A stretch of 35,543 bases of DNA. Origin: an uncultured SAR116 cluster alpha proteobacterium. GTDB taxonomy: Bacteria > Pseudomonadota > Alphaproteobacteria > Puniceispirillales > Marisalimonadaceae. The stretch spans positions 1 to 35,543 of the forward strand of contig CACNEF010000011.1 of the NCBI GenBank assembly GCA_902619485.1, read 5' to 3'. Positions 3,895-15,900 of this stretch are shown here, in pieces. Both the position numbers and the translations under genes were made by a program. The notes under the pieces were generated by a model. It had not been told where the DNA came from, made no database searches, and saw only the letters and a list, made by a program, of their open reading frames with translations. Positions within the stretch are counted from its first letter, which is position 1. Each line of letters opens with the position of its first letter.

Positions 3895-4494
3895 ATGGAA
3901 AAAACTAAATTGAACAAACATTTTATACTTGCATCTAGTTCCCAAAGACGGCTCCAACTTCTTAGTCAAATAGGTGTTATACCTGACTTAATATTATCAC
4001 CAAATATTGATGAAAAGATATTTTCTAAAGAGTTACCCCGTATATATGTTGAGAGAATGTCTTTAGAAAAAAATAGAGTTTTTCAACAAAAATACCCTCA
4101 ATCTTTAATACTTACTGCTGATACGGTGGTTTCAGTAGGTAGAAGGATCTTGCCTAAAACTGCAGATATAAATACAGCTGAGGAATGCTTAAAATTAATT
4201 TCAGGAAGAAGACATAAAGTTTTTACAAGCTTTACGCTTTATTCACCAAAAAATTCACTCAAAACAAAAACCATACAATCAATCATAAAATTTAAAAGAT
4301 TACATCCGGATGAAATAAGTTATTATCTTGCTACAAAGGAATGGGAAGGGAAAGCAGGGGGATATGCCATACAAGGAATTGCCGCATCATTTATAAATTT
4401 TATATCAGGTTCGTACAGCAATGTAGTAGGTTTGCCCTTAGCAGAGCTTTACAGAGTGTTAATTTCTATCGGATATAATTTCAAAAATGATTAA
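3895..4494 (+). CDS. maf: Maf family nucleoside triphosphate pyrophosphatase
   Basis: Maf proteins hydrolyse non-canonical or modified NTPs (dTTP/UTP or m7GTP, by subfamily) to monophosphates. Motifs: ILASSSQRRLQLLSQIG (phosphate-binding SxxR near residue 14), TADTVVSVGRRILPKT (catalytic Asp), SGRRHKVFTSF, and GGYAIQGIAASFINFISGSY with NVVGLPLAEL at the C-terminus. 199 aa, normal length. It follows infA by 24 nt and overlaps the RNase gene by 8 nt, the usual infA-maf-rng arrangement. The subfamily (YhdE-like or YceF-like) is not decided. Confidence 0.93.
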   Translation: MEKTKLNKHFILASSSQRRLQLLSQIGVIPDLILSPNIDEKIFSKELPRIYVERMSLEKNRVFQQKYPQSLILTADTVVSVGRRILPKTADINTAEECLKLISGRRHKVFTSFTLYSPKNSLKTKTIQSIIKFKRLHPDEISYYLATKEWEGKAGGYAIQGIAASFINFISGSYSNVVGLPLAELYRVLISIGYNFKND

Positions 4495-5503
4495 TGAAAT
4501 TAAAGACCATTTTATCTTGGTAGATAAATGTGCCGAAGAGACAAGAGTAGTTGAAATTAAGAGTAAAAAAATTGTTAAAATTACTTGTTGGCAAGATGAA
4601 AAGCCTCCGTTGATTGGTAATGTTTTATATGCAACAGTTTTAAAAACATTAAATAGTGGGATTGTCAGGGCAAGTTTAAATAATAAAAAAATAGTCACTG
4701 TCAGAGCAGGGACAAAATTTTTTAAAAAAAATGAAAAAATTAAAGTTATTATTACTAGTGAAGAGTTTGAAGATAAGCCTATTCAGGCAAAATTATGGTC
4801 TGGAAATTGTGATTTAGAAAAAATGAATGATGTAAAACGGATAATTCATCTTTTTTATAATAAAAATATACCTGTAATAGAAGACAATCATGCAATCTAT
4901 TGGAATAATATGGATTTAGATAGTTGTTTTCTTAGCGCTTTAAATTCTATGATAAAAATTGAGGATGGTGGTACTTTATGGATTGAAAAAACAAAAGCCG
5001 CCACCCTTATTGATGTTGATACTAAAACTATATTAATTAACAATGAAGATGAAATGTTAAAGTTCTGTAAAAATGTGTTTCTCAAATGTATGGATGAAAT
5101 TAAATTGAGAAATATAGGAGGTATGATACTTATTGATTTTCCTAGAATGTCTTTTAATAGAAAAAAAAATCTTCATGAATTTATTACTAAAGAAGGAACA
5201 AAAAAAAATTCAGACAGCAATTTTCTAGGTTTTTCTAAATTACAACTTTATGAGATGTATGTACCAAGAAACTTTAAGTCTATAGAGAGTTTTTATATTA
5301 ATAAAAGTGAATTTGATTTTCAAAACCACATAAGATCATTGTGGAGAGCATCTAAGAAAATCAGATCTAAAAATAATATTCAGTTTTTATGTGGTAAAAA
5401 TCTCCATAAAAGATTAAAGCATAAAAAAATACCAGAATTTATAAATATTGTTGAAAGAAAAGATCTCCCAAATGATTACGGTGAGTTATCAGAAAAAAAA
5501 TAA
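4487..5503 (+). CDS. Ribonuclease E/G family protein (RNase G-like), divergent
   Basis: Probable endoribonuclease of the RNase E/G family. 338 aa. Residues about 40-90 look like an S1-type segment (NVLYATVLKTLNSGIVRASL). The two catalytic-aspartate motifs are visible: IEKTKAATLIDVDTK (D176) and GGMILIDFPRMS (D217), equivalent to D303 and D346 of E. coli RNase E. The motif normally reading LGLVEMTRKR is degenerate here (FLGFSKLQLYEMYVPR) and no CPxC zinc link is present, so this is a short, divergent member. It overlaps maf by 8 nt and is followed at once by yacG, the standard alphaproteobacterial order. Substrate unknown; rRNA or mRNA processing is inferred from the family. Confidence 0.85.
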   Translation: MINEIKDHFILVDKCAEETRVVEIKSKKIVKITCWQDEKPPLIGNVLYATVLKTLNSGIVRASLNNKKIVTVRAGTKFFKKNEKIKVIITSEEFEDKPIQAKLWSGNCDLEKMNDVKRIIHLFYNKNIPVIEDNHAIYWNNMDLDSCFLSALNSMIKIEDGGTLWIEKTKAATLIDVDTKTILINNEDEMLKFCKNVFLKCMDEIKLRNIGGMILIDFPRMSFNRKKNLHEFITKEGTKKNSDSNFLGFSKLQLYEMYVPRNFKSIESFYINKSEFDFQNHIRSLWRASKKIRSKNNIQFLCGKNLHKRLKHKKIPEFINIVERKDLPNDYGELSEKK

Positions 5504-5733: not shown

Positions 5734-5809
5734 GCCCGGGTAGCTCAGTAGGTAGAGCAGAGGACTGAAAATCCTCGTGTCGGTGGTTCGAATCCGCCCC
5801 CGGGCACCA
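5734..5809 (+). tRNA. tRNA-Phe (anticodon GAA)
   Basis: Complete cloverleaf of 76 nt with encoded CCA. Acceptor GCCCGGG (5734-5740) pairs with CCCGGGC (5799-5805); the D arm contains AGCTCAGTAGGTAGAGC. Anticodon stem GAGGA (5760-5764)/TCCTC (5772-5776) closes loop CTGAAAA with anticodon GAA at 5767-5769. The T arm is GGTGG-TTCGAAT-CCGCC. It lies downstream of yacG as is common in Alphaproteobacteria. Its last 55 nt (5755-5809) are imperfectly repeated at 13147-13201, which makes it the probable integration site of an island; if so, the 3' half of the present gene may derive from the incoming element. Confidence 0.98.
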
Positions 5810-5823
5810 CTTTTCTTTTTTAA

Positions 5824-6191
5824 GACTTAACTAACCCGTTAGTAGAGCATTGTAAAAAAAATAATAGACCTTATGAACAAAAAAAAGACGCTCCTGCAGG
5901 TCATTTAATTGGACCAGAGGTTTATAAAAGTATTTACGTACAACCATCTACAGAGCATAAAATATTATTGATTAGGGAACATGAAGTTGATAGAAAATTC
6001 CTCCTCAATCTATTGAAATCCTTTCAAAAATATAAATCTCAACTATTGACAAAGATACCAATGAATCAGCCCTTTATCCTATTACACTTGACAAAATTGA
6101 TACTTTATATGTTGTCTGTTATTAATTATCATTTGAGACTATGGGTGATATAATTGATAGAACTGAAATGTCTAAAGAATTTCAAAATTAA
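5824..6191 (+). pseudogene. Decayed coding remnant after tRNA-Phe, family unknown
   Basis: This fills most of the 479-nt gap between the tRNA and the ABC operon. One frame is open from 5824 and reads protein-like text (HCKKNNRPYEQKKDAP, GHLIGPEVYKSIYVQPSTEH, KILLIREHEVD). Near 6000 the sense shifts to another frame (PPQSIEILSKI, then DTNESALYPITLDKIDTLYV, FETMGDIIDRTEMSKEF), which is broken by TAA at 6033 and 6123 and ends at TAA 6189. I read this as one gene ruined by a frameshift and nonsense changes; no good start codon or ribosome site is visible. The open stretch at 5968-6153 in the first frame is hydrophobic out-of-frame text, not a gene. I do not recognise the family. 6192-6288 shows nothing. 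Confidence 0.45.
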
Positions 6192-6288
6192 GTCAGTAAG
6201 GCCAATTAAACAGAAAAATTAAAAGAATCTAATGTTGTAAAAATAATTTAAGTACCAAATTAATTTATTTTTTAAATTTTAATGAAAT

Positions 6289-7344
6289 TTAATTTATTCT
6301 TTCATCTTTTTTAGTAAAAAAGTGTAAATATTTAGAAATAAACTTTATGCCAATTTTCTCATTAAGAACAACTTTAGTATTTGGATCTAATTTCACTACA
6401 ATTAGTTCATTATCCAATTCGCAATCAATATAAACGTATTGTTCAGAACCTAAATATTCACAAAACTTTATATTGCCTTTTAACATATTTTTTACTGGCT
6501 TACAAAGTTCTATATTATCTGGTCTTATTCCAATTTTAAAAACATTTTCTTTTTTTGTTTTAATATTAGTTTTTTTATTTTTGTTGAGATATATATATCC
6601 TTCTTTTTGGTTGCACTCTAAAATATTCATTTTTGGAGTTCCAATAAATTGGGCAACGAATAAATTTTGTGGATAATTATATAGTTCGAATGGTGAACCA
6701 ATTTGAATGATTTTTCCTTCATTAAGTACAACTATCTTATCTGCAAGTGTCATTGCTTCAATTTGGTCGTGAGTAACATATATTGTGGTTACTCCAAGTT
6801 CTTTATGGAGTTTTGAAATTTCTAAACGCATTTCAACTCGTAAGGCTGCATCAAGATTTGAGAGAGGTTCATCAAACAAGAAGGCTTTAGGTTTTCTTAT
6901 TATTGCTCTCCCAATTGCTACTCTTTGTTTTTGTCCCCCAGATAATTGTTTAGGAAGTCTATGCAATAAATTATCTAATCGGAGTATCTTAGCAATTTCT
7001 CCAACTCTTTTTTCTAATATTTTGTTTTTAACTCCTGATGTCTTTAAAGAAAAACCAATATTATCAAAAACACTCATATGAGGGTATAAGGCATAGGATT
7101 GAAAAACCATTGATATTCCGCGATCATATGGAATCTTATTAGTTACATCAACGTCATCGATTGAAACCGACCCGTTATCTAAATCCTCCAAACCAGATAT
7201 TATTCTCAAAAGAGTTGATTTGCCACATCCAGAAGGTCCAACGAAAACAACAAATTCTCCATCTTTTATATTAAGATCAATGTTTTTAATAACCTGATTA
7301 TCAGAAAACCATTTTGAGATATTTTTAAGTGTAATAGAAGACAT
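6289..7344 (-). CDS. Sugar ABC transporter ATP-binding protein (UgpC/MalK/MsmX type)
   Basis: Cytoplasmic ATPase of a carbohydrate (CUT1-type) importer, 351 aa. Walker A GPSGCGKST near residue 37, Q-loop MVFQSYALYPHMSV, signature LSGGQKQRVAIGRA near 135, Walker B KAFLFDEPLSNLDA, H-loop TTIYVTHDQIEAMTLA. The C-terminal 110 residues (IGTPKMNIL, IGIRPDNIEL) match the TOBE/MalK regulatory region. It is the last gene of the minus-strand operon, 11 nt after the glycosidase gene, and completes the transporter with the two permeases and binding protein upstream. The ligand is probably a glucoside, judged from the hydrolase. Confidence 0.93.
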   Translation of the reverse strand: MSSITLKNISKWFSDNQVIKNIDLNIKDGEFVVFVGPSGCGKSTLLRIISGLEDLDNGSVSIDDVDVTNKIPYDRGISMVFQSYALYPHMSVFDNIGFSLKTSGVKNKILEKRVGEIAKILRLDNLLHRLPKQLSGGQKQRVAIGRAIIRKPKAFLFDEPLSNLDAALRVEMRLEISKLHKELGVTTIYVTHDQIEAMTLADKIVVLNEGKIIQIGSPFELYNYPQNLFVAQFIGTPKMNILECNQKEGYIYLNKNKKTNIKTKKENVFKIGIRPDNIELCKPVKNMLKGNIKFCEYLGSEQYVYIDCELDNELIVVKLDPNTKVVLNEKIGIKFISKYLHFFTKKDERIN

Positions 7345-7355
7345 TTTTTTTCACA

Positions 7356-8645
7356 TTAATTTTTAAATAACTGGAAATCAAAACTCTCTCTACACAGTTT
7401 AAGAAAGATTGCTGCAGTCCATGAAAAGTTATCACCACCAAGTCCTTTACCTGTTAGGGGATCAAAATATTCAAACATCCCACCCAATTCAGTTAGTTTG
7501 ATAGTATCATTCTTAATCCTTTTTGCTAGCAAGTATTCTTTTTCATTTTCTAAGCCAACTAAAATCATATAATTCATTATTAACCAAACAGGGCCTCTCC
7601 AATATCTTTCACTTTCAAAACTTTCATGTTTTGGATCAAGGCTTGGGATACCATAAACGCATTCATCTAGAATCCTCTTACAATGTTCAATGGTATATTT
7701 TTTTTGCTTATCAGTGCCTACACCAGCATATAAACAAAGCATTGATGCGTTAGTGATTGCATCGGAGAATTGATTAGTTCTCATGTCAAATGCTGTAAAA
7801 GCTCTCACCTTATCATTCCAAAATTTTTGGCAACCATTTTCAAGTTTGTTAATCCAATACTCAATTTTACTGATTTTATTTTTATAGTTTAGTAATTTAG
7901 CTAATGATAAGAGGTCTTTATTAGCTTTTAAGAAAATAAAATTTATACCAGGATCTATAGCCAAAAAAGGTCCGTGATTATACATATTTATAGGATCCCA
8001 ATTACAATTTTTCCCATATTGAACAATAGACATAAATTTATCATAATCTTCATTAGTAGGTCTTTGAGATAGTTCTACGTGCGAAGTGTCGCACCTAAGG
8101 TACTCTTCAAAATTATCTGGAATTTTAACTTCTTTAAGTCCTAAGTCCCAGTCAGGACAATTATCTCTACCAGACTCCCAAGGATGAATTATACTTATAA
8201 AACCCTCATTATTTGGATCTCTAGCTGAAAAGAACCATTCATGATATGCCATTAAAGAGTTAAAAAGACTTTGACTTTTCTTTAGATCATAATCATCTCC
8301 GTCTCTTACCATTTCAAGTATAACACTTGCTAACACTGGGGGTTGAGAGTGACAACTTGTTTTAGAATTCGCTTTTATTTGCCAATGATTTGGACCAGGA
8401 AAATAATTAGGATTATTTTCATGAAAAACTATGTGAGGTATCATTCCATTTATCCATTGAGCATTTATTAATAAAATTAATTCTTGCCATGCTCTTGTTT
8501 TATTATAAGTGGCAATACCCAAAGCAGTAAACGCGGAATCCCAATTCCATTGGTGAGGATAAAGTTTATTGGTAGGAATTGTAAATCCACCACGATCGTT
8601 TCTGTTAATAATTTCAACAGCTTTTTGTAATTTCTCCTTCAACAT
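7356..8645 (-). CDS. GH63-like glycosidase, probable glucosylglycerate hydrolase type
   Basis: (alpha/alpha)6-barrel glycosidase, 429 aa, no signal peptide, so it acts in the cytoplasm. Motifs resemble bacterial GH63 glucosylglycerate/mannosylglycerate hydrolases: KLYPHQWNWDSAFTALG (27-43), GMIPHIVF (67-74), SQPPVLASVI (100-109), HPWESGRDNCPDWD (154-167) whose D161 fits the general acid, and GGMFEYFDPLTGKGLGGDNF (near 388-407) whose E392 fits the general base; FSWTAA follows. The first base of its ATG is the last base of the permease stop (TAATG), implying coupled translation. Embedded in a sugar ABC operon, it probably hydrolyses the imported glucoside (glucosylglycerate or a related solute). 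Family confident, substrate inferred; other GH63/GH37-like activities remain possible. Confidence 0.82.
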   Translation of the reverse strand: MLKEKLQKAVEIINRNDRGGFTIPTNKLYPHQWNWDSAFTALGIATYNKTRAWQELILLINAQWINGMIPHIVFHENNPNYFPGPNHWQIKANSKTSCHSQPPVLASVILEMVRDGDDYDLKKSQSLFNSLMAYHEWFFSARDPNNEGFISIIHPWESGRDNCPDWDLGLKEVKIPDNFEEYLRCDTSHVELSQRPTNEDYDKFMSIVQYGKNCNWDPINMYNHGPFLAIDPGINFIFLKANKDLLSLAKLLNYKNKISKIEYWINKLENGCQKFWNDKVRAFTAFDMRTNQFSDAITNASMLCLYAGVGTDKQKKYTIEHCKRILDECVYGIPSLDPKHESFESERYWRGPVWLIMNYMILVGLENEKEYLLAKRIKNDTIKLTELGGMFEYFDPLTGKGLGGDNFSWTAAIFLKLCRESFDFQLFKN

Positions 8646-9868
8646 TATCCTTTAACTCCACCAGCTGATAGGCCAGATATCAAAAATTTTTCCAAATAAA
8701 GAAAAATAACCATAACAGGTATTGTGGCTATTACGGCACCAGCCATTAAGTGTTGTTGAGGAATTTCAGAAGAGTTTAAAGACATTATACCTCTAGATAA
8801 AGTAAATATATTTGGATCATCTAAAAACATAAATGCTATCAAGAATTCATTCCATGCAATCATAAAAACATATAAACCAACACTCACAATCGCTGGTTTT
8901 GAGAGAGGTATTGCTATTTTTAGTATAATTTGAACTCTAGAAAGCCCATCAATTAGTGCAGCATCATCAATTTCACTTGATAATGCGCTGAAGTAACCTC
9001 TTAGCATATAAAGTGCAACTGGAATGGTGGTCGCAGGGTACACTAACATTAGACCAAATAAAGAGTTTCTTAAGCCCATATAAGAAAAAATTATATATAG
9101 TGGAATAATCAAAACTATAGAAGGAATTAAATAAATTAATATTACAGCACCTGAAAAAATTTTTTTGTTGGGTATCCTTAATCTAGCAAGTGCATAAGCT
9201 CCAGGAATTGAGAAAAATAAAGTAATAATTACTGTTGTGCAGGATACAATGAAAGAATTAATTAAAAACAAATGAAAATTGAAATTAGTAAACAATTCAA
9301 TGTAAGAATTAAATAGAGTTTTAAAATCGGTATTTAAATTAACAGACAAATCTAGAGGGTTTAAAATCAAGCTTTGTTGATTTTTTAAACTTGTCATAAT
9401 CATAATATAAAATGGAATTAAGGTTATCAAAATTAATATTATTAAACCTATTCCCCACATGAATTTTATTAAAAAACTTTCGATATCATGTTTTGACAAT
9501 TTTCCAGGACTTAAATTGTATAAAGAATGGTTCAAACTTACCCATATAAAAAATGAAGTTGATAAAATTAATATAAATATTATTAGTTGATTTTCATCTC
9601 CTGCATGATATGGGTTTCCTAAGTGAGAAATATAAATAAGAAAAGAAATTATAATTATTGCAGTAAGATGGAATTTTATAGATAAAAATTTTTGACTTTT
9701 GATGTAAATAAATCCTGCTAATGGCCCGATAATCATAATTTGACTTAACTCTAAACTTAATGGTGTTCCAAGAGTCAAAATGCCAACTAAAGTGAAAAAG
9801 ATTTGCCAAAAAATACCCCATATACCTCCAGACAAAATCGAAAAAAATAAGCCATATTTCCAAAACAT
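8645..9868 (-). CDS. Sugar ABC transporter permease, MalG-like, with N-terminal extension
   Basis: Inner-membrane permease, 407 aa. Residues from about 135 to the end form a normal MalG-type MetI domain: first helix near 137-160 followed by MTSLKNQ, PGAYALARLRIPNKK, and the EAA loop EIDDAALIDGLSRVQIILKIAIPLSKPA, the contact site for the ATPase. The first 130 residues are additional: about four hydrophobic stretches (near 5-30, 40-58, 68-85, 95-115) not found in ordinary 280-aa MalG proteins. It follows the other permease with a 1-nt gap and overlaps the glycosidase start by one base. The role of the extra helices is unknown. Confidence 0.9.
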   Translation of the reverse strand: MFWKYGLFFSILSGGIWGIFWQIFFTLVGILTLGTPLSLELSQIMIIGPLAGFIYIKSQKFLSIKFHLTAIIIISFLIYISHLGNPYHAGDENQLIIFILILSTSFFIWVSLNHSLYNLSPGKLSKHDIESFLIKFMWGIGLIILILITLIPFYIMIMTSLKNQQSLILNPLDLSVNLNTDFKTLFNSYIELFTNFNFHLFLINSFIVSCTTVIITLFFSIPGAYALARLRIPNKKIFSGAVILIYLIPSIVLIIPLYIIFSYMGLRNSLFGLMLVYPATTIPVALYMLRGYFSALSSEIDDAALIDGLSRVQIILKIAIPLSKPAIVSVGLYVFMIAWNEFLIAFMFLDDPNIFTLSRGIMSLNSSEIPQQHLMAGAVIATIPVMVIFLYLEKFLISGLSAGGVKG

Positions 9869-9869
9869 T

Positions 9870-11153
9870 TTAAAATGTTTCCTTTTTTGAATATCTCATA
9901 AAAAGTAAAGAGAATGTAAGTAGAAATATAAAAATTACTACTGCCACAGCTGCTCCTGCTCCAAGATTAGAAATTGCAAATGCTTGTTCATAAACATTTA
10001 CAGTAAAGGTTCTTGTTCCTGCGTTTCCGCCAGTCAATAAGAAAATGTCATCAAATTTGTTAAAGGTCCATATGAATCTTAGTAAAAATAAAATAGACAT
10101 AATACCAATTAAAAATGGAAGTGAAATATAAATGAATTGTTGGAATGGTGACGCTCCATCCATTTTGGCAGCATCATATACTTCTTCAGGAAACGACTGC
10201 ATACGAGCAAGAATAAATAAAAAAGAAAGAGGAAAATATCTCCAAATTTCAAAAGCTATAACCATTGATAAAGCTAAAGGAAATCTAAAGACATAACCAA
10301 AAATAATTATGTCAGTATATTTTTGTCCAAAAAAATTAATTGGTTTATCAATTACATTCATTTGAACTAACATTGAATTTATAATACCTGAGAAAGGATC
10401 AAATAATATTACCCATGCAAAAGCTACTGCTATCACTGGTGACACATAAGGAAAAAGAAGTAATCCACGTACAATTGATCTTCCCCTAAAAGATTTTTGT
10501 AAAATTTGTGCTGCCAGAAGACCAACTAACAATGCTCCAGCAGTGCCAAATATGGTATAGTAAAAAGAAACTTTTAATACTTCAAAAAATTCAGAAGCAG
10601 AAAAAACTTTTTTAAAGTTTTCAGTGTTAAATTCAAAAGAGGTTAGTACATTTTTGCTTGAAAAAGTTACTAACGGTTTAGTTTTTTTGGGGTTGTCTAA
10701 TTCTTTTTGCCATTGATCATTTTTATGAATTTTTACAATTATCTTTCCAGAGGATTTTGAGGAAACATTATTTAAATTACATGTTAACTCTTTTAATTTT
10801 ATCCTACATAATTGGGCTGGTTGCAAATCTTTAACTATGAAACCATTTGGAATTATGTCTTTAATTATCACATTTTTAAGATCATATTTAATCGATGAAT
10901 TTCTGTATCTATATTGAATTTCTGCAATTTGACTTTTGTCAGATAAATTTCCTTTAATGCGTTCTTTTACTATAAGTTTTGGTGGACGCAGATCTCCCAA
11001 GGATACTGGTTTAAAGGAAATCCAAAAATTAGCTAAGAGTGGAAATATTACTACAGATAATACTATTAAAATAGTTGGCAGTAAAAGTATTAGGCCAAGT
11101 TTTTTTTCTTTTTCTAATAAATTGTTTTTATTTTTTTTTTTGATATTTGTCAT
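9870..11153 (-). CDS. Sugar ABC transporter permease, MalF-like, with DUF11-like periplasmic insert
   Basis: Inner-membrane permease, 427 aa. Helix 1 at about 19-45, then a periplasmic loop of about 140 residues, then a normal MalF-type MetI domain from about 185 (FYYTIFGTAGALLVGLLAA, PEEVYDAAKMDGASPFQQF as EAA loop). The loop segment 78-143 (LKNVIIKDIIPNGFIVKDL, cysteines C116 and C125, then LNNVSSKSSGKIIVKI) resembles a DUF11-type beta-sandwich repeat (pattern: VxVxDxxPxGxxV...C...C.L..L..G....I.V). By position this loop matches the P2 loop of MalF that touches the binding protein. Its gene follows the binding-protein gene after a stem-loop. The DUF11 resemblance is by eye. Confidence 0.88.
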   Translation of the reverse strand: MTNIKKKNKNNLLEKEKKLGLILLLPTILIVLSVVIFPLLANFWISFKPVSLGDLRPPKLIVKERIKGNLSDKSQIAEIQYRYRNSSIKYDLKNVIIKDIIPNGFIVKDLQPAQLCRIKLKELTCNLNNVSSKSSGKIIVKIHKNDQWQKELDNPKKTKPLVTFSSKNVLTSFEFNTENFKKVFSASEFFEVLKVSFYYTIFGTAGALLVGLLAAQILQKSFRGRSIVRGLLLFPYVSPVIAVAFAWVILFDPFSGIINSMLVQMNVIDKPINFFGQKYTDIIIFGYVFRFPLALSMVIAFEIWRYFPLSFLFILARMQSFPEEVYDAAKMDGASPFQQFIYISLPFLIGIMSILFLLRFIWTFNKFDDIFLLTGGNAGTRTFTVNVYEQAFAISNLGAGAAVAVVIFIFLLTFSLLFMRYSKKETF

Positions 11154-11181
11154 TCAAAAATACTTAAAATTATAATGAAAA

Positions 11182-11210
11182 GTTAGACGACCTTATAAAG
11201 ATCGTCTAAC
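11182..11210 (-). terminator. Stem-loop after the sugar binding-protein gene (attenuator or mRNA stabiliser)
   Basis: GTTAGACGA (11182-11190) pairs with TCGTCTAAC (11202-11210). In the minus-strand RNA a G-U pair (11191/11201) and three more pairs (CTT/AAG) extend this to a 13-bp stem with a 3-nt loop. It starts 7 nt after the binding-protein stop and is followed by a weakly T-rich run, then the permease gene. Such intercistronic hairpins commonly keep binding-protein mRNA in excess over permease mRNA. Confidence 0.7.
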
Positions 11211-11217
11211 GAATAAT

Positions 11218-12561
11218 TTAATTTATTTTTGAAAGTTCTTTGTTTAACTTACTTACAGCAGTCTTAACATCAATTTGATCATCAATGAATTCACGAACTA
11301 CTCGATTAATAATTTGAGAATTTATAATTTTTGATGCTAAAGATAGTTGACCCTCTTTTACACCCCATCTATCAGCAGTTTGAAGTCCAGAAACAATTTT
11401 ATTAATTGTAATATCTGAATATAATTCTGATAAAGGAGCCTTTCTATCAACTCCAACTGGTAACTTTGACCATGCATTTACATATTTTGCTGTATCAAAA
11501 GGCTCACCCCTACGAACTGGGAATTTGCCCTCTGGTGCAATTGAAAGTGTAGCAGTATATCCATCTTTCATTGAATACTTAACAAACTCTGCAGCAACGT
11601 CAGTATTTGCGTCTGAGGTTACTCCAAAATAGCGTATATCTGCCCAAGCAGCACCTGCAGGATTAGATGGACCTCCAAACGTTGTTACAATTCCAGTCTT
11701 TTGTGCTAAAGCCTTTGAAGTTGGGTCATCATTGATAGTTGGTGGTGCGGAGTTTCTCAAACCAGCTAATTCATCAAGAATAAAAGGTGACCATATAATC
11801 ATAGCAGCTTTACCAGCGAAATATATTGCCCGAGATTGTTTCCAGTATAATTCACCAGCTGGTGAAGCTTTAGCAATCTTTTTATAAAAATTTAAAACTT
11901 CAGACGTTGCTTTTTCGTCTAGTGGGCTGAAACCATTTTTATTAACAGGCGATACCCCATTAGCTAAAAAAACATGTTCTAAAACTTGACTCATAAAATT
12001 TTCATCAACCTTAGTTGCTGCAACAAAACCGTACATGTTTGGTGGATTATGTAATTTATCAATTGCTTTTTCAATGTTTGCATAGCTATTTGGTGGAGCT
12101 AATCCAGCTGCATCAAAAATATCCTTACGATAAACTACCATTTGTGTCCAACCGTCAACTGGTACAGCAGCAGTTTTTCCGTCAAATTGCGCCATTTTGA
12201 TAGCGCCTGGTGCAAAAGTCCTTTTCATAAGAGAGTTTACAATGTCATCATTAGTTTCTACATCAAGAATACCAGCCTCAGACCATGGCAATACATATTG
12301 TAATGTATGATAAATAACATCTGGCAAATCACCTGCAGCGAATGCTGCTGTTGCCCTTTTACCAAGATCTTTTTCAGACACTGGTATAACTTCTACTTCA
12401 TGTCCAGTCTTTTGCCAAAAATCGGCAGCCATTGCATTTTGTTTTGCAAGACGCGCAGGTTGTTCCTCAGTGGTCCAAAATCTTATTTTTTCAGCTATCG
12501 CTATATTTGAAAATAATAGAAAGATTAGACTATATATCAAATAATTAAAAAATTTATGCAT
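11218..12561 (-). CDS. Extracellular sugar-binding protein (ABC solute-binding family 1)
   Basis: Periplasmic binding protein of the sugar importer, 447 aa. Signal peptide: basic MHKFFN, hydrophobic core to about residue 20, cleavage after AIA before EKIRFWTTEEQ. The mature part has the family 1 pattern IRFWTTEEQPARLAKQNAMA, GDLPDVIYHTL, VDGWTQMVVYRKDIFDAAGL (docking strand and Asp), and a C-terminal AAEFVKYSM helix. A GGAGGAG ribosome site is 7 nt before the ATG, the strongest in the operon. It is first in the minus-strand operon and is followed by a strong hairpin. Ligand unknown; a glucoside such as glucosylglycerate is inferred from the GH63-like enzyme. Confidence 0.92.
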   Translation of the reverse strand: MHKFFNYLIYSLIFLLFSNIAIAEKIRFWTTEEQPARLAKQNAMAADFWQKTGHEVEVIPVSEKDLGKRATAAFAAGDLPDVIYHTLQYVLPWSEAGILDVETNDDIVNSLMKRTFAPGAIKMAQFDGKTAAVPVDGWTQMVVYRKDIFDAAGLAPPNSYANIEKAIDKLHNPPNMYGFVAATKVDENFMSQVLEHVFLANGVSPVNKNGFSPLDEKATSEVLNFYKKIAKASPAGELYWKQSRAIYFAGKAAMIIWSPFILDELAGLRNSAPPTINDDPTSKALAQKTGIVTTFGGPSNPAGAAWADIRYFGVTSDANTDVAAEFVKYSMKDGYTATLSIAPEGKFPVRRGEPFDTAKYVNAWSKLPVGVDRKAPLSELYSDITINKIVSGLQTADRWGVKEGQLSLASKIINSQIINRVVREFIDDQIDVKTAVSKLNKELSKIN

Positions 12562-12597
12562 TATTTCTCCTCCAATATATTATTGAATTTGTTTTAT

Positions 12598-12609
12598 GAA
12601 ACACGTTCC
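12598..12609. promoter_or_regulatory. Possible LacI-type operator upstream of the sugar operon
   Basis: GAAACACGTTCC is an imperfect dyad (8 of 12 positions symmetric) with the central CG-type look of LacI-family operators. It lies 37 nt before the binding-protein ATG, downstream of a TTGACT-like hexamer on the minus strand near 12661. A second dyad, CTATATT-N10-AATATAG, spans 12626-12649. No regulator gene is present in the window. Weak, by-eye evidence. Confidence 0.25.
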
Positions 12610-12916
12610 CCAACGATATTTCAAACTATATTAGAATTATTAAATATAGTATTAGAGTCAATCACACTAATCAGGGAAATAATATTTGCTTAATAAATAA
12701 GCAAAATCGTTTTTTAATTTCACATTAAACTCTATTAATTTTTAAATGTATAATTGGATTTAAGGATAAAATTTTAATAAATTAAGTACTTAGTTATATG
12801 TACCACCTAACCTAATTAACAAAAGGCAAAAAATGTTTCGCCACAGATTTTAGGAGAATCGTATTTTATAGCTAAACACCCTCAGTAATGCCTTATGTTT
12901 CTAATAATCGTTAGGC

Positions 12917-13062
12917 TTATAACCTAGCATTAACTTGAACATACCTAAACAATTGACTAGCAGTCTCGTAACCACTGATAAATGTAACTTCTGGCACGTT
13001 TAATCCCGTTTCAAACATCCTTGAATTTGCCAAAGTCTATTTCTTTTCCTAAATGACGCCAT
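12917..13062 (-). pseudogene. Collapsed tyrosine-recombinase (integrase) gene, N- and C-termini only
   Basis: On the minus strand, GGAGG then ATG at 13062 begins MASFRKRNRLWQIQ, the typical opening of phage/shufflon-type integrases (MAxxRKRxxxWQ). That frame stops at TAA 13002-13000. In another frame, from about 13021 to TAA 12917, the sequence reads RMFETGLNVPEVTFISGYE then TASQLFRYVQVNARL. This is the C-terminal catalytic end of the same family, usually R-L-F-E-x-G-L-x-x-x-E-V, GH, then L-x-R-Y with the nucleophilic Tyr; here His of the GH motif is Tyr. The roughly 250-300 residues between have been deleted with loss of frame. It sits 85 nt inside the tRNA-Phe-like repeat at 13147-13201, as an element's integrase would. 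The rest of the 730-nt gap (12562-12916, 13063-13146, 13202-13291) holds only the operon leader and no recognisable gene. Confidence 0.8.
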
Positions 13063-13146
13063 TATACATCCTCCGTGTGATACAGGTGTGAAGATGGTAA
13101 TATAATTTTTGTTAAGTCTGTGATATGCCTACGTTTATTTGTACAA

Positions 13147-13201
13147 GAGCAGTCGACTGAAATTTTTCGAGTCTGTTGTTCGATTTTGCTTCCGTGCACT
13201 A
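13147..13201 (+). repeat. Displaced tRNA-Phe 3' end (attR-like), degenerate
   Basis: This 55-nt stretch aligns without gaps to the last 55 nt of tRNA-Phe (5755-5809): 40 identities. It keeps GAGCAG, the anticodon loop start CTGAAA (GAA at 13159-13161), GTC of the variable loop, TTCGA of the T loop and GCAC of the acceptor end; CCA has become CTA. The stems no longer pair well, so it is not a functional tRNA. The 5' part of the tRNA cannot be traced upstream. Orientation is the same as the intact gene. Interpreted as the original host tRNA 3' end pushed aside by integration. Confidence 0.78.
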
Positions 13202-13291
13202 AGTTTTGTAAACCCTAAATAAACTTTTTGTCACAATTGCAATTTTGTGAAATCAATAATTTATTCGTTAAAAAAAATGAGCTTGGTGATT

Positions 13292-14437
13292 TTATAAGAA
13301 TATACGTTTTGTCATATCTGGCAAATCTGAATTAAAAAAAGCATCTTTTACAATTTTTTGATGATCACTTTCTAAAACTCTTGCTAAAATAGATGCGTAA
13401 ACTGATCTTGCATCAATAGAAGAATTAAGATCTCGTCCTTCAAATAAATTTTTTTGCTCTAGTCCAGGCCAATCGCTTATTATTCTTGATTTCGGTAATA
13501 AACCTCCTGCCATAAGTATTGCTGTGCCATATCCATGCTCAGTACCAGATCCACCATTTTGCGACATAGTTCTCCCAAACTCTGTAAGTGACGCAACAAT
13601 TGTATTATTAAATGTTTGCCCCATCTGTTTTCTTAATGTGCCAATGACATCATCAAATTGTTTTAATTTTTTTGCGTGTTCTCCATTGTCTCCACCTTGA
13701 TCAGCATGAGTGTCAAACCCACCTATATCAAAAATAGCAACGCTTGGGCCTGTTGGATCCGAAAGTTGCTGTGCTGCAATTTTAGCCAATCCTTTCATAT
13801 CTCTGTCAGATCTGGATTTAGGCTCCATCATGGCTATAGGCCTTTTTCGGATGGTGCTCAAAACTTCCCATAACATCTTATCTTCTTTATAATCATTTTG
13901 TAATAATTGTAATGTACTATCATTTGGTAGTTTGTTTTTCGAGGGCATGAAACTGTCAAGATCATTACCACCTCTTAAAATTAGAGGCATAGGTAGAGAG
14001 ATAGATAATCCTTTAATGCCAGCTCCTTCCAAAGCTCTACCAACCCATCCCGTTTTATCAAAATAAGGTTGTGTCCCACCACTCTCCATTAAGTATTGTC
14101 CCTCAAAATGTGATCTTCCAGTGTAGGGTATAGACGATGCATGGAATATAGATGCTTGTCCCTGATCCCATAAAGATTTGTAATTTTTTAACATTGGATG
14201 CAAAGCGAAGTCAGCTGTAATTTGTACTGGTTTATTTACACCAATGTCAGGCCTTGCTTTTGTTAGTATATTATTCCCAATATATGGCACTGCAGTAAGC
14301 CCGTCCATACCTCCACGTAACATAATTATTACAAGATTGTTTTTTCTTTTATTAGAGGCAATTGCTTTTGATAAGACAGGTGCAGTTAAAATTAGCGAAG
14401 TTGATCCAGCTAAAAATAAACGTCTAGATATTCTCAT
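13292..14437 (-). CDS. DUF1501 family protein, probable Tat-exported
   Basis: 381 aa. The N-terminus MRISRRLFLAGSTSLILTAP has a twin-arginine motif (SRRLFL) and hydrophobic core, so Tat export to the periplasm is likely. DUF1501 motifs: NLVIIMLRGGMDGLTAVP near residue 35, SHFEGQYLMESG, VAIFDIGGFDTHADQGG (metal-type Asp/His) and LTEFGRTMSQNGGSGTEHG, consistent with an alkaline phosphatase/sulfatase-like fold. Its first four bases overlap the end of the DUF1800 gene (ATGA). DUF1501 and DUF1800 proteins usually occur as a pair; the physiological role is not established. Confidence 0.9.
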   Translation of the reverse strand: MRISRRLFLAGSTSLILTAPVLSKAIASNKRKNNLVIIMLRGGMDGLTAVPYIGNNILTKARPDIGVNKPVQITADFALHPMLKNYKSLWDQGQASIFHASSIPYTGRSHFEGQYLMESGGTQPYFDKTGWVGRALEGAGIKGLSISLPMPLILRGGNDLDSFMPSKNKLPNDSTLQLLQNDYKEDKMLWEVLSTIRKRPIAMMEPKSRSDRDMKGLAKIAAQQLSDPTGPSVAIFDIGGFDTHADQGGDNGEHAKKLKQFDDVIGTLRKQMGQTFNNTIVASLTEFGRTMSQNGGSGTEHGYGTAILMAGGLLPKSRIISDWPGLEQKNLFEGRDLNSSIDARSVYASILARVLESDHQKIVKDAFFNSDLPDMTKRIFL

Positions 14438-15900
14438 GCTTTCAACACCTTTCTACTACATAAAATTGAAATTAGAGATTTGGATTGTTCATTTTTTAAC
14501 TCTAAAGAATTCAAAAATTTCAAAAACTTTTCAGGTTCATCAAAATTTTGTTTTACTACTTTTTTAGAAATATCTATTAATGGTAAGGAGTTCCTATATA
14601 ATCCAATTTGTATGGGATTATTTATTAAAGCTATTCTTCTTACTAGATATTCTTGAGATAACCATTCATCTTTTGTATCTGGAAAACCATTAGGTTGTTT
14701 GGCTCTAAAAGGAAGGTGGCCTAATTCTGCTAGGATATATTTGATCTTTTTTTGTTTATAATTAAGTTTTGATTTGAAATCATATTCAAAAATTTTTGGG
14801 TCTCCAGGCCAATCAGCTCCTGTCATCCTTGCTATTTGAATGAGCCATGTCTCAGGTGATAAAAATTTATCGTTAGATTTACCGAATTTCCAAGTTGCTT
14901 CAATTACAGCTTGATGAATTTGAGGAAGCATACCTTTTGAATTTTCCCAGGCATCAGTAACCATTTTGATCATTTCTGGTTTTGGATCATCACAAATAAA
15001 ATGGCGACATAATTTCCAAGAAATAAATCTTCGACATTCTGCACTTTTACACAAATCTTCTACCAGATCACGTAATTGGTTTTTCCCTTTTGTTTTTGCA
15101 CTAAAACCAATAGTTTTATATTTTTTGCCAAGTACGGTATGTGTGCCAGGCTCATGCAAAGAACCTTGATAACCAATTTTTTTAGCTTCTACACCCTTTC
15201 TGCCACCTATAAAACCCCAGCCTGTCATAATATTGGCTGTGTTAATTACATCATCTTGTGTATATCCAGCATTAGGAGAAATTGTATGAAGCTCTAGTAA
15301 TTCACGACCATGATTTTCATTTAGTCCTTTTTCTGGTTTGTTTTTTCGACGCCTATTTACATTAAATTCTGAATTTGGTCCTCTTGATTTAAAATTATCT
15401 AAACTTTTAATCATTGGCCACGTTAAAGTCATATCATAGACCATATCTGCAAATCTACCTGTCATTAAAGTTCTAAGTTGTTCTCTTTGCATTGCCCCTG
15501 TATTAAAAGTAGCTAGTTTATTTTTATCAATAATAGTAAAATGATTTCCCCAAAAATGCCAAAATCTCTCAAAGACAGGTTGGTTCCCATAAACAGCTTG
15601 ATGATGTCTAATTGCTAACTCATAGCTTTCAAAGTAACGTCGACCAGAGCTTCGATATAATTTATTTTTTTTAACTTTTGCAGTAGCTGGATTCTTTTCA
15701 GTCTTTTGAATTTTGTCTTCTTGCGTGGTAAAATCTACACGAATATCAAGCATTTCCTGTTCTGAATATATTTTACCAGGCCAAATTAAATTTGGCACAG
15801 AATTCATTTGGGATTTTGCCCAATTAAGTGGGTCTTTTGGAATTTTTTCATCTGGTCTGAGACCAAAGCCAACTTTACGTAAAAAAGATTTAGGTTTCAT
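14434..15900 (-). CDS. DUF1800 family protein
   Basis: 488 aa; partner of the downstream DUF1501 gene. Motifs: AIRHHQAVYGNQPVFERFWHFW with NHFTI (near 110-135), the family hallmark NENHGRELLELHTI near 195-210, then GYTQDDVINTANIMTGWGF and a CRRFISWKLCRHF segment. No clear signal peptide; the start at 15900 (MKPKSFLRKVGFG) matches the usual beginning of family members, which open with a short basic, glycine-containing segment. Divergent from the dehydrogenase gene at 16038 across a 137-nt AT-rich gap. Function unknown. Confidence 0.9.
   Translation of the reverse strand: MKPKSFLRKVGFGLRPDEKIPKDPLNWAKSQMNSVPNLIWPGKIYSEQEMLDIRVDFTTQEDKIQKTEKNPATAKVKKNKLYRSSGRRYFESYELAIRHHQAVYGNQPVFERFWHFWGNHFTIIDKNKLATFNTGAMQREQLRTLMTGRFADMVYDMTLTWPMIKSLDNFKSRGPNSEFNVNRRRKNKPEKGLNENHGRELLELHTISPNAGYTQDDVINTANIMTGWGFIGGRKGVEAKKIGYQGSLHEPGTHTVLGKKYKTIGFSAKTKGKNQLRDLVEDLCKSAECRRFISWKLCRHFICDDPKPEMIKMVTDAWENSKGMLPQIHQAVIEATWKFGKSNDKFLSPETWLIQIARMTGADWPGDPKIFEYDFKSKLNYKQKKIKYILAELGHLPFRAKQPNGFPDTKDEWLSQEYLVRRIALINNPIQIGLYRNSLPLIDISKKVVKQNFDEPEKFLKFLNSLELKNEQSKSLISILCSRKVLKA

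Follow-up and report, generated by a model that had tools for sequence, protein, structure and literature searches.

Islands integrated into tRNA genes, in which the target gene is regenerated and a displaced fragment of it is left behind, have been mapped with the Islander algorithm, which insists on an integrase for every island (PMC4383910). In Alteromonas australica, additive flexible islands have been described in which a tRNA gathers cargo cassettes, and one such island there terminates in a copy of the final 52 nt of a tRNA-Leu (PMC4119200). For the streamlined planktonic Methylophilaceae, repeats of the last 20 nt of tRNA-Lys, a tycheposon, and metabolic cargo are reported, and the same article characterizes the tycheposons of Prochlorococcus as small cargo elements that reside at tRNA genes and employ a tyrosine recombinase (PMC10872708).

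A related arrangement is described herein for a 35,543-nt stretch of DNA (the window), which is contig 11 of the 1.62-Mb draft genome of an uncultured SAR116 bacterium (43 contigs, 78% complete). Where individual genomes need to be told apart, G-numbers denote the compared genomes (G000 being the window's own) and L-numbers their loci. The segment from 5810 to 13201 is interpreted, with a probability of about 0.92, as what is left of a small integrative element, now dead, that was inserted at tRNA-Phe. No published description of this SAR116 case was found in the literature listings searched, and the main text of a SAR116 paper of 2025 makes no mention of genomic islands, tRNA, or integrases (PMC12262181).

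Attachment Sites and Anatomy of the Island

According to ARAGORN the window holds a single tRNA gene, tRNA-Phe, which is also the sole Rfam match above the gathering score (71.4 bits). As proposed in the initial annotation, the last 55 nt of this gene recur in direct orientation 7392 nt away, with 40 of 55 positions identical and no gaps; the similarity does not reach into the 5' part of the tRNA, where 3 of the first 21 nt match, and a whole decayed tRNA gene is thereby ruled out as the identity of the displaced copy. The next best place in the window for the tRNA-Phe 55-mer scores 26, the maximum was 30 both for 100 windows simulated under a first-order Markov model and for 200 shuffled 55-mers set against the real window, and five other tRNA sequences (one Met, two Val, and two Thr) reached at most 29, so the objection foreseen at the outset, that the match might prove no better than those of other tRNAs or of shuffled sequence, does not hold. 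Differences in the displaced copy are almost exclusively to A or T (14 of 15), and 11 of 34 GC sites are changed as against 4 of 21 AT sites, the pattern expected of AT-biased decay. A restored tRNA and a displaced 3' fragment in direct orientation, a feature by which tRNA-targeted integrative islands are recognized, are accordingly both present.

The DNA enclosed by the two copies consists of one intact minus-strand operon of five genes with gene debris at both ends, as had been claimed, and the debris can now be identified (Table 1). At the left end it derives from a 204-aa protein whose intact relative has no Pfam match. At the right end, tblastn recovers residues 3-25 of a tyrosine integrase at 13089-13021 (83%) and residues 282-318 at 13030-12920 (84% to the integrase of G072), both on the minus strand; both ends of the gene are kept, nearly all of the middle is gone, and the two pieces are no longer in frame. 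The right-end debris had also been considered AraC-like, an interpretation given up once these integrase ends had been found, and a match of 6243-6289 to a spacer near gene c20 of relatives was not used, being AT-rich and overlapping the operon tail that G017 also has.

Table 1. Features at the tRNA-Phe locus of the window and the basis on which each was assigned.
Feature	Position	Strand	Basis
tRNA-Phe, target gene; 5755-5809 = restored 3' end (attL)	5734-5809	+	ARAGORN; Rfam tRNA 71.4 bits
Possible left end of element, decayed	5810-5845	+	Resembles motif after CCA in relatives; score 14 vs. 99.9% null 16
Pseudogene of 204-aa protein, cluster c59, function unknown	5875-6239	+	blastx E 9.5e-14, two pieces, 40% and 32% identity
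Cargo block also present in G017	6258-12872	-	89% DNA identity to G017:C2 (L056 5139-11773)
Sugar ABC transporter ATPase (UgpC/MalK type)	6289-7344	-	ABC_tran, TOBE_2; NCBIfam UgpC subfamily 448 bits, cut-off 432
MGH1-like glycoside hydrolase (mannosyl-/glucosylglycerate type)	7356-8645	-	PF22422 1.8e-103; PDB 2z07 6e-105
ABC permease	8645-9868	-	PF00528
ABC permease	9870-11153	-	PF00528
Solute-binding protein	11218-12561	-	SBP_bac_8, SBP_bac_1; sugar-binding proteins in PDB
Operon leader carried along	12562-12872	-	82% to stretch upstream of operon in G017, 80% in G016
Tyrosine-integrase pseudogene, internally deleted, out of frame	12917-13089	-	tblastn, two pieces
Element end arm adjoining displaced copy; includes integrase start	13031-13146	+	Aligned with five islands, four relatives
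Displaced tRNA-Phe 3' end (attR)	13147-13201	+	40/55
Sequence directly 3' of tRNA-Phe in G017	13202-13291	.	76/88 aligned bases identical
DUF1501 and DUF1800 genes, probably older island of hotspot	13292-15900	-	Pfam; presence, version, orientation vary between relatives

The relic reads away from the displaced copy, and the place and orientation of its pieces mean that this copy lies at the position expected for it in an integrase element. A tyrosine integrase gene adjoining the attachment site is thus found as a relic only, and with nearly all of the middle of that gene lost the element can presumably no longer move itself; the island is a dead member of the tRNA-targeted integrative genomic islands, not a working one. 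Among the matches listed, the whole draft has one PF00589 domain, and it is not on the window contig. In the mechanism proposed, the integrase would have acted on two sites, the tRNA-Phe gene of the chromosome and an attP bearing a copy of its 3' end, and recombined them, whereupon the incoming copy would have restored the tRNA and the old 3' end would have been displaced to the far end, the integrase gene starting at the displaced-copy end and reading into the island.

Empty Site and tRNA-Phe Hotspot

In G017, the sequence found beyond the displaced copy in the window comes directly after tRNA-Phe. The window flanks, when joined at 5809/13202, agree with G017 at 349 of the 377 bases aligned, and the joint falls on the CCA end. 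A relative thus has an empty site jointed at the tRNA 3' end, together with the scar of an older element. A 40-nt left-end motif, read off the same sequences on which it was then scored, follows the CCA in 17 of 34 tRNA or copy ends; the G017 site scores 22 on it, as against 14 in the window and 16 for the 99.9% null, and since the G017 site passes, the DUF1501/DUF1800 genes there are probably an older island and the site is empty only of the island considered here.

The DUF1501/DUF1800 genes had been proposed as a native flank that should directly follow the tRNA in some relatives. DUF1501 does lie within 100 bp after the tRNA in 4 of the 24 intact loci of the genus (G017, G033, G023 with a 51% version, and G003 with a 26% version), and in the window these right-flank genes are 97% identical to those of G017, which is without the island; their status as native flank is not borne out, given the variation among relatives listed in Table 1. 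In named records, relatives of the DUF1501 gene occur in SAR116 single-cell AG-390-M08 (97%) and SCGC AAA015-N04 (92%), as found in a contig scan (two loci).

Cassettes at tRNA-Phe vary among the 24 genus loci with an intact tRNA-Phe, as is characteristic of additive islands: TPR proteins, a four-gene operon, and a TRAP transporter (DctM) are among what follows the tRNA, DUF1501/DUF1800 occur there in both orientations, and some loci have little. Further tRNA-Phe copies are present in G035 and G022 (two each, in tandem) and in G025 and G006 (one each), with a weak one in G007 (29/45). The locus is interpreted as a hotspot at which such islands are stacked, the newest next to the tRNA. Two observations concern the surroundings of the gene in other genomes. 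G020 has a copy of the tRNA-Phe 5' half (nt 1-41, 86%; G020:C20 9634-9675, L044) at a distance of 1.2 kb ahead of the intact gene, whereas it is the 3' end that is usually copied, and the RNase E/G-like gene that precedes tRNA-Phe (window 4487-5503) has homologues with several stops in G012:C12 and G025:C6.

Integrase Family and End Arm

Seven tRNA-Phe copies of relatives were aligned, five of which (in G022, G036, and G006, and two in G035) are preceded by an arm of ~110 bp that matches the arm of the window; a clear arm is absent before the remaining two, namely the nearer copy of G022 and the copy of G025. Of 136 genomes in the order, 17 have a match to the arm model (R1) with an E value of no more than 0.001, among them the five that supplied the model. 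A full-length integrase of the family occurs together with the arm and a tRNA-Phe 3' copy in G072 (44/45), G044 (43/45), and G062 (31/45), and in G032 a contig ends in the arm. The empty site, the integrase relic, the common arm, and integrase-bearing relatives therefore support the initial proposal that an element integrated site-specifically at the 3' end of tRNA-Phe and then decayed.

Within the genus, 14 of 25 tRNA-Phe loci were searched for the integrase family by tblastn and yielded fragments only or nothing, and a wider PF00589 search gave, among the matches listed, none on a contig where they have tRNA-Phe. In G011, G022, G013, G006, and, from another genus, G069 (loci L009, L041, L045, L042, and L118) the integrase is cut off at the same point and followed by the same 200 bp, and this joint of five genomes and two genera marks an island without integrase, either an old one or one that has spread; beyond it, in G022, G006, and G013, lies the four-gene operon mentioned above, for ATP-grasp, Alpha-E, transglutaminase, and proteasome-like proteins. 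The integrase is truncated at other points in the window, in one G035 island, and in one G062 island, and these differing truncation points indicate that it was lost several times.

The full-length integrase of G062 (L108 746-1702) reads HDLGHEA where its relatives have HDLRHEA; the Arg is taken here to be catalytic, and G062 has probably lost it. Related integrases (~33-37% identity) adjoin tRNA-Val in G009, G012, and G015 (L114 5164-6267, L110 5366-6469, and L112 5357-6460) and are likely sister families with another tRNA target. Viral contigs gave no match to a 47-nt tRNA-Phe piece and four loci matching the integrase at 22-28% identity, and 474 phage records have a match to the integrase, all below 60% identity and the best at 37.8%, which leaves no close phage source. 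In PHROGs, the G072 integrase matches general integrase families, and six of the seven other proteins given match nothing.

Cargo Operon

Against the glucosylglycerate hydrolase model NF047898 the hydrolase scores 309 bits, below the cut-off of 550, so only membership of the wider MGH1-like family is claimed and the substrate named is a prediction. The nearest solved structures are those of Thermus TTHA0978 and of mycobacterial hydrolases, presumably mannosylglycerate and glucosylglycerate hydrolases. Judged from sequence, the cargo comprises an ABC importer and a glucosyl-/mannosylglycerate-type hydrolase, both intact, and is predicted to import and cleave a small sugar-like solute. Between the window and G017, the operon differs at 0.30 of fourfold sites and at 0.084 of amino acids, which indicates that the cargo genes have been kept by selection.

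Former Locus, Mosaic Structure, and Age of the Operon

Of the 61 genomes searched, 18 have the hydrolase at an E value of no more than 1e-20, the window's genome included; G016 and G002 keep its C-terminal part only, ~80 codons (L068 9278-9523 and L069 9503-9748), and that of G003 (L061 9621-10910) is split by a TGA. The operon was seen next to tRNA-Phe in none of the 17 other genomes with the hydrolase (its surroundings having been compared in all but G039 and G054), and the other objection foreseen at the outset, that all relatives carry it there, does not hold. In 13 of the 17, the hydrolase and the listed tRNA-Phe are on different contigs or, in G053, are separated by 343 kb; for the other four (G002, G011, G018, and G039), no intact tRNA-Phe is listed.

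Among the operon loci of the genus that were fetched, 13 of 14 have the same neighbour genes, in a different order in G016 and G002, and G017 is the exception. That neighbourhood, but not the operon, is present on contig 1 of the window's genome, where its DNA is 93-94% identical to that of G022. At the joint is a 26-34 bp scrap of the ATPase gene, which matches G013 best (34/34); over a 38-nt stretch at the scrap, identities are 34 for G013, 32 for G014, 30 for G022, 29 for the island's own gene, and 28 for G017. Since the scrap is nearer the common genus type, a common-type operon stood there and was then deleted in place. The earlier suggestion that the operon was acquired through integration consequently stands with an amendment: the island and its decay agree with it, but the operon was not new to the lineage, having an older genus locus with an in-place deletion.

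In G017 the operon lies within a tandem array of tRNA-fMet copies, between 50-nt copies at L056 5038 (50/50) and 11869 (46/50), with its last stop codon ~130 bp from the CCA of the latter. The window's genome has a tRNA-fMet array of its own, on contig 1 near the deleted operon site. These arrays of tRNA-fMet 3' copies extend over G017:C2 121504-138979 (L056, L079) and G000:C1 629965-635807 (L078, L076); every copy in them is followed by a common terminator-like hairpin, and a weak integrase N-terminus (57-60%, E 0.001-0.004) adjoins one copy in the window's genome.

Compared in 300-bp steps, the ends of the island operon are nearer to G017 (88-96%) than to the remaining ten genomes (73-87%), and the stretch of ~9.1-12.1 kb is nearer to the common type (89-99%) than to G017 (78-92%), with the outermost step, 6250, low for all and step 12250 undecided. 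FastTree, applied to 11 sequences, likewise places the window with G017 for 6290-9050 and 12250-12700 (support 1.000) and with G014 for 9150-12150 (support 0.80). The island copy of the operon is, on these comparisons, a recombinant, and on the simplest account its central ~3 kb of common genus type would probably have come from the resident copy before that copy was lost.

As for age, the flanking genes differ from those of G017 at 0.21 of fourfold sites (JC 0.25), or ~0.125 per lineage, and the displaced copy differs at 15 of 55 positions (JC 0.34), which exceeds 0.25/2 and, as a rough estimate, makes the island about as old as the G017 split or older. If it is older, G017 may have lost the island instead of never having had it. 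The term "ancient," used in the initial annotation, is thus apt on the scale of species within the genus and, judged by the divergence of the displaced copy, not beyond it.

Alternative Explanations

Given that just 40 of 55 bases match, the repeat might be attributed to chance similarity or to a plain partial duplication of the tRNA gene, with no integrative element involved; such an origin has next to no probability and is refuted by nulls that reach only 30, as well as by the integrase relic, the common arm, and the empty site. An assembly or amplification chimera, in which the operon and tRNA-Phe became linked only during laboratory work, would accord with a draft of 43 contigs and 78% completeness and with an exact arrangement that is seen in one genome only, but it is very improbable, as the decayed copy, the integrase relic, and the arm make up one coherent structure that recurs elsewhere. 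Several points do weigh against the island interpretation: the left end of the window element, which, at a score of 14 versus 16, is too decayed to prove; the lack of a clear arm before two of the seven aligned copies; the age of the displaced copy relative to the G017 split; the left-end motif at the G017 site; and a 78% complete draft with no second genome found to have the island.

An alternative of greater weight, although still unlikely, is that the island integrated in another SAR116 lineage and arrived ready-made by homologous recombination in conserved flanks, which would have produced the same anatomy with no integrase acting in this lineage. The operon is already a recombinant, trees of the flanks give no one consistent sister for the window's genome, and the displaced copy is old relative to the G017 split, all of which are in keeping with such an import; against it, the hydrolase search of 61 genomes turned up no donor and no other genome with this island, and the right flank is 97% identical to that of G017, which is without the island. 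Integration at tRNA-Phe in this lineage, followed by decay, remains the preferred interpretation.

Implications

The empty site, the relic, the full-length relatives, and the deletion scar together show a nutrient-uptake operon of an uncultured marine clade changing its address. A displaced tRNA fragment at 73% identity can, moreover, mark a dead island that a rule calling for an intact integrase would miss. It may tentatively be speculated that SAR116 maintains a cassette economy, in which cargo is re-packaged between elements of differing tRNA specificity, as the single genome pair of G017 (tRNA-fMet) and the window (tRNA-Phe) might suggest, and in which integrase-less islands are moved in trans through conserved ends acted on by rare integrase-bearing copies. 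If this is true, tRNA genes would play a part in a streamlined genome comparable to that of attI sites in an integron. The tRNA-Phe and tRNA-fMet loci of SAR116 offer testable hotspots of cassette exchange.

Comparison With Known Systems

The tRNA target, the tyrosine recombinase, and the cargo of the island fit the tycheposon pattern, whereas the recombinase here is dead. Tycheposons have further defining replication or helper modules, and the island is not classed as a member. It resembles the islands found by Islander in its restored tRNA, its displaced 3' fragment at the far end, and the tyrosine integrase adjoining it, and departs from them, as they are described in that article, in having an integrase pseudogene and a fragment of just 73% identity (PMC4383910). 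With A. australica it shares a tRNA that gathers cassettes, in another host, at another tRNA, and with other cargo, and it goes beyond the account given there in that the relic of an integrase and the place where the cargo once lay can be recognized as well (PMC4119200). The Methylophilaceae provide a parallel in streamlined plankton, with tRNA-end repeats and cargo of metabolic functions, although the copies here are of ~55 nt and the integrase is decayed (PMC10872708). In summary, the SAR116 island is a new and unusually well resolved case of the known additive tRNA islands.
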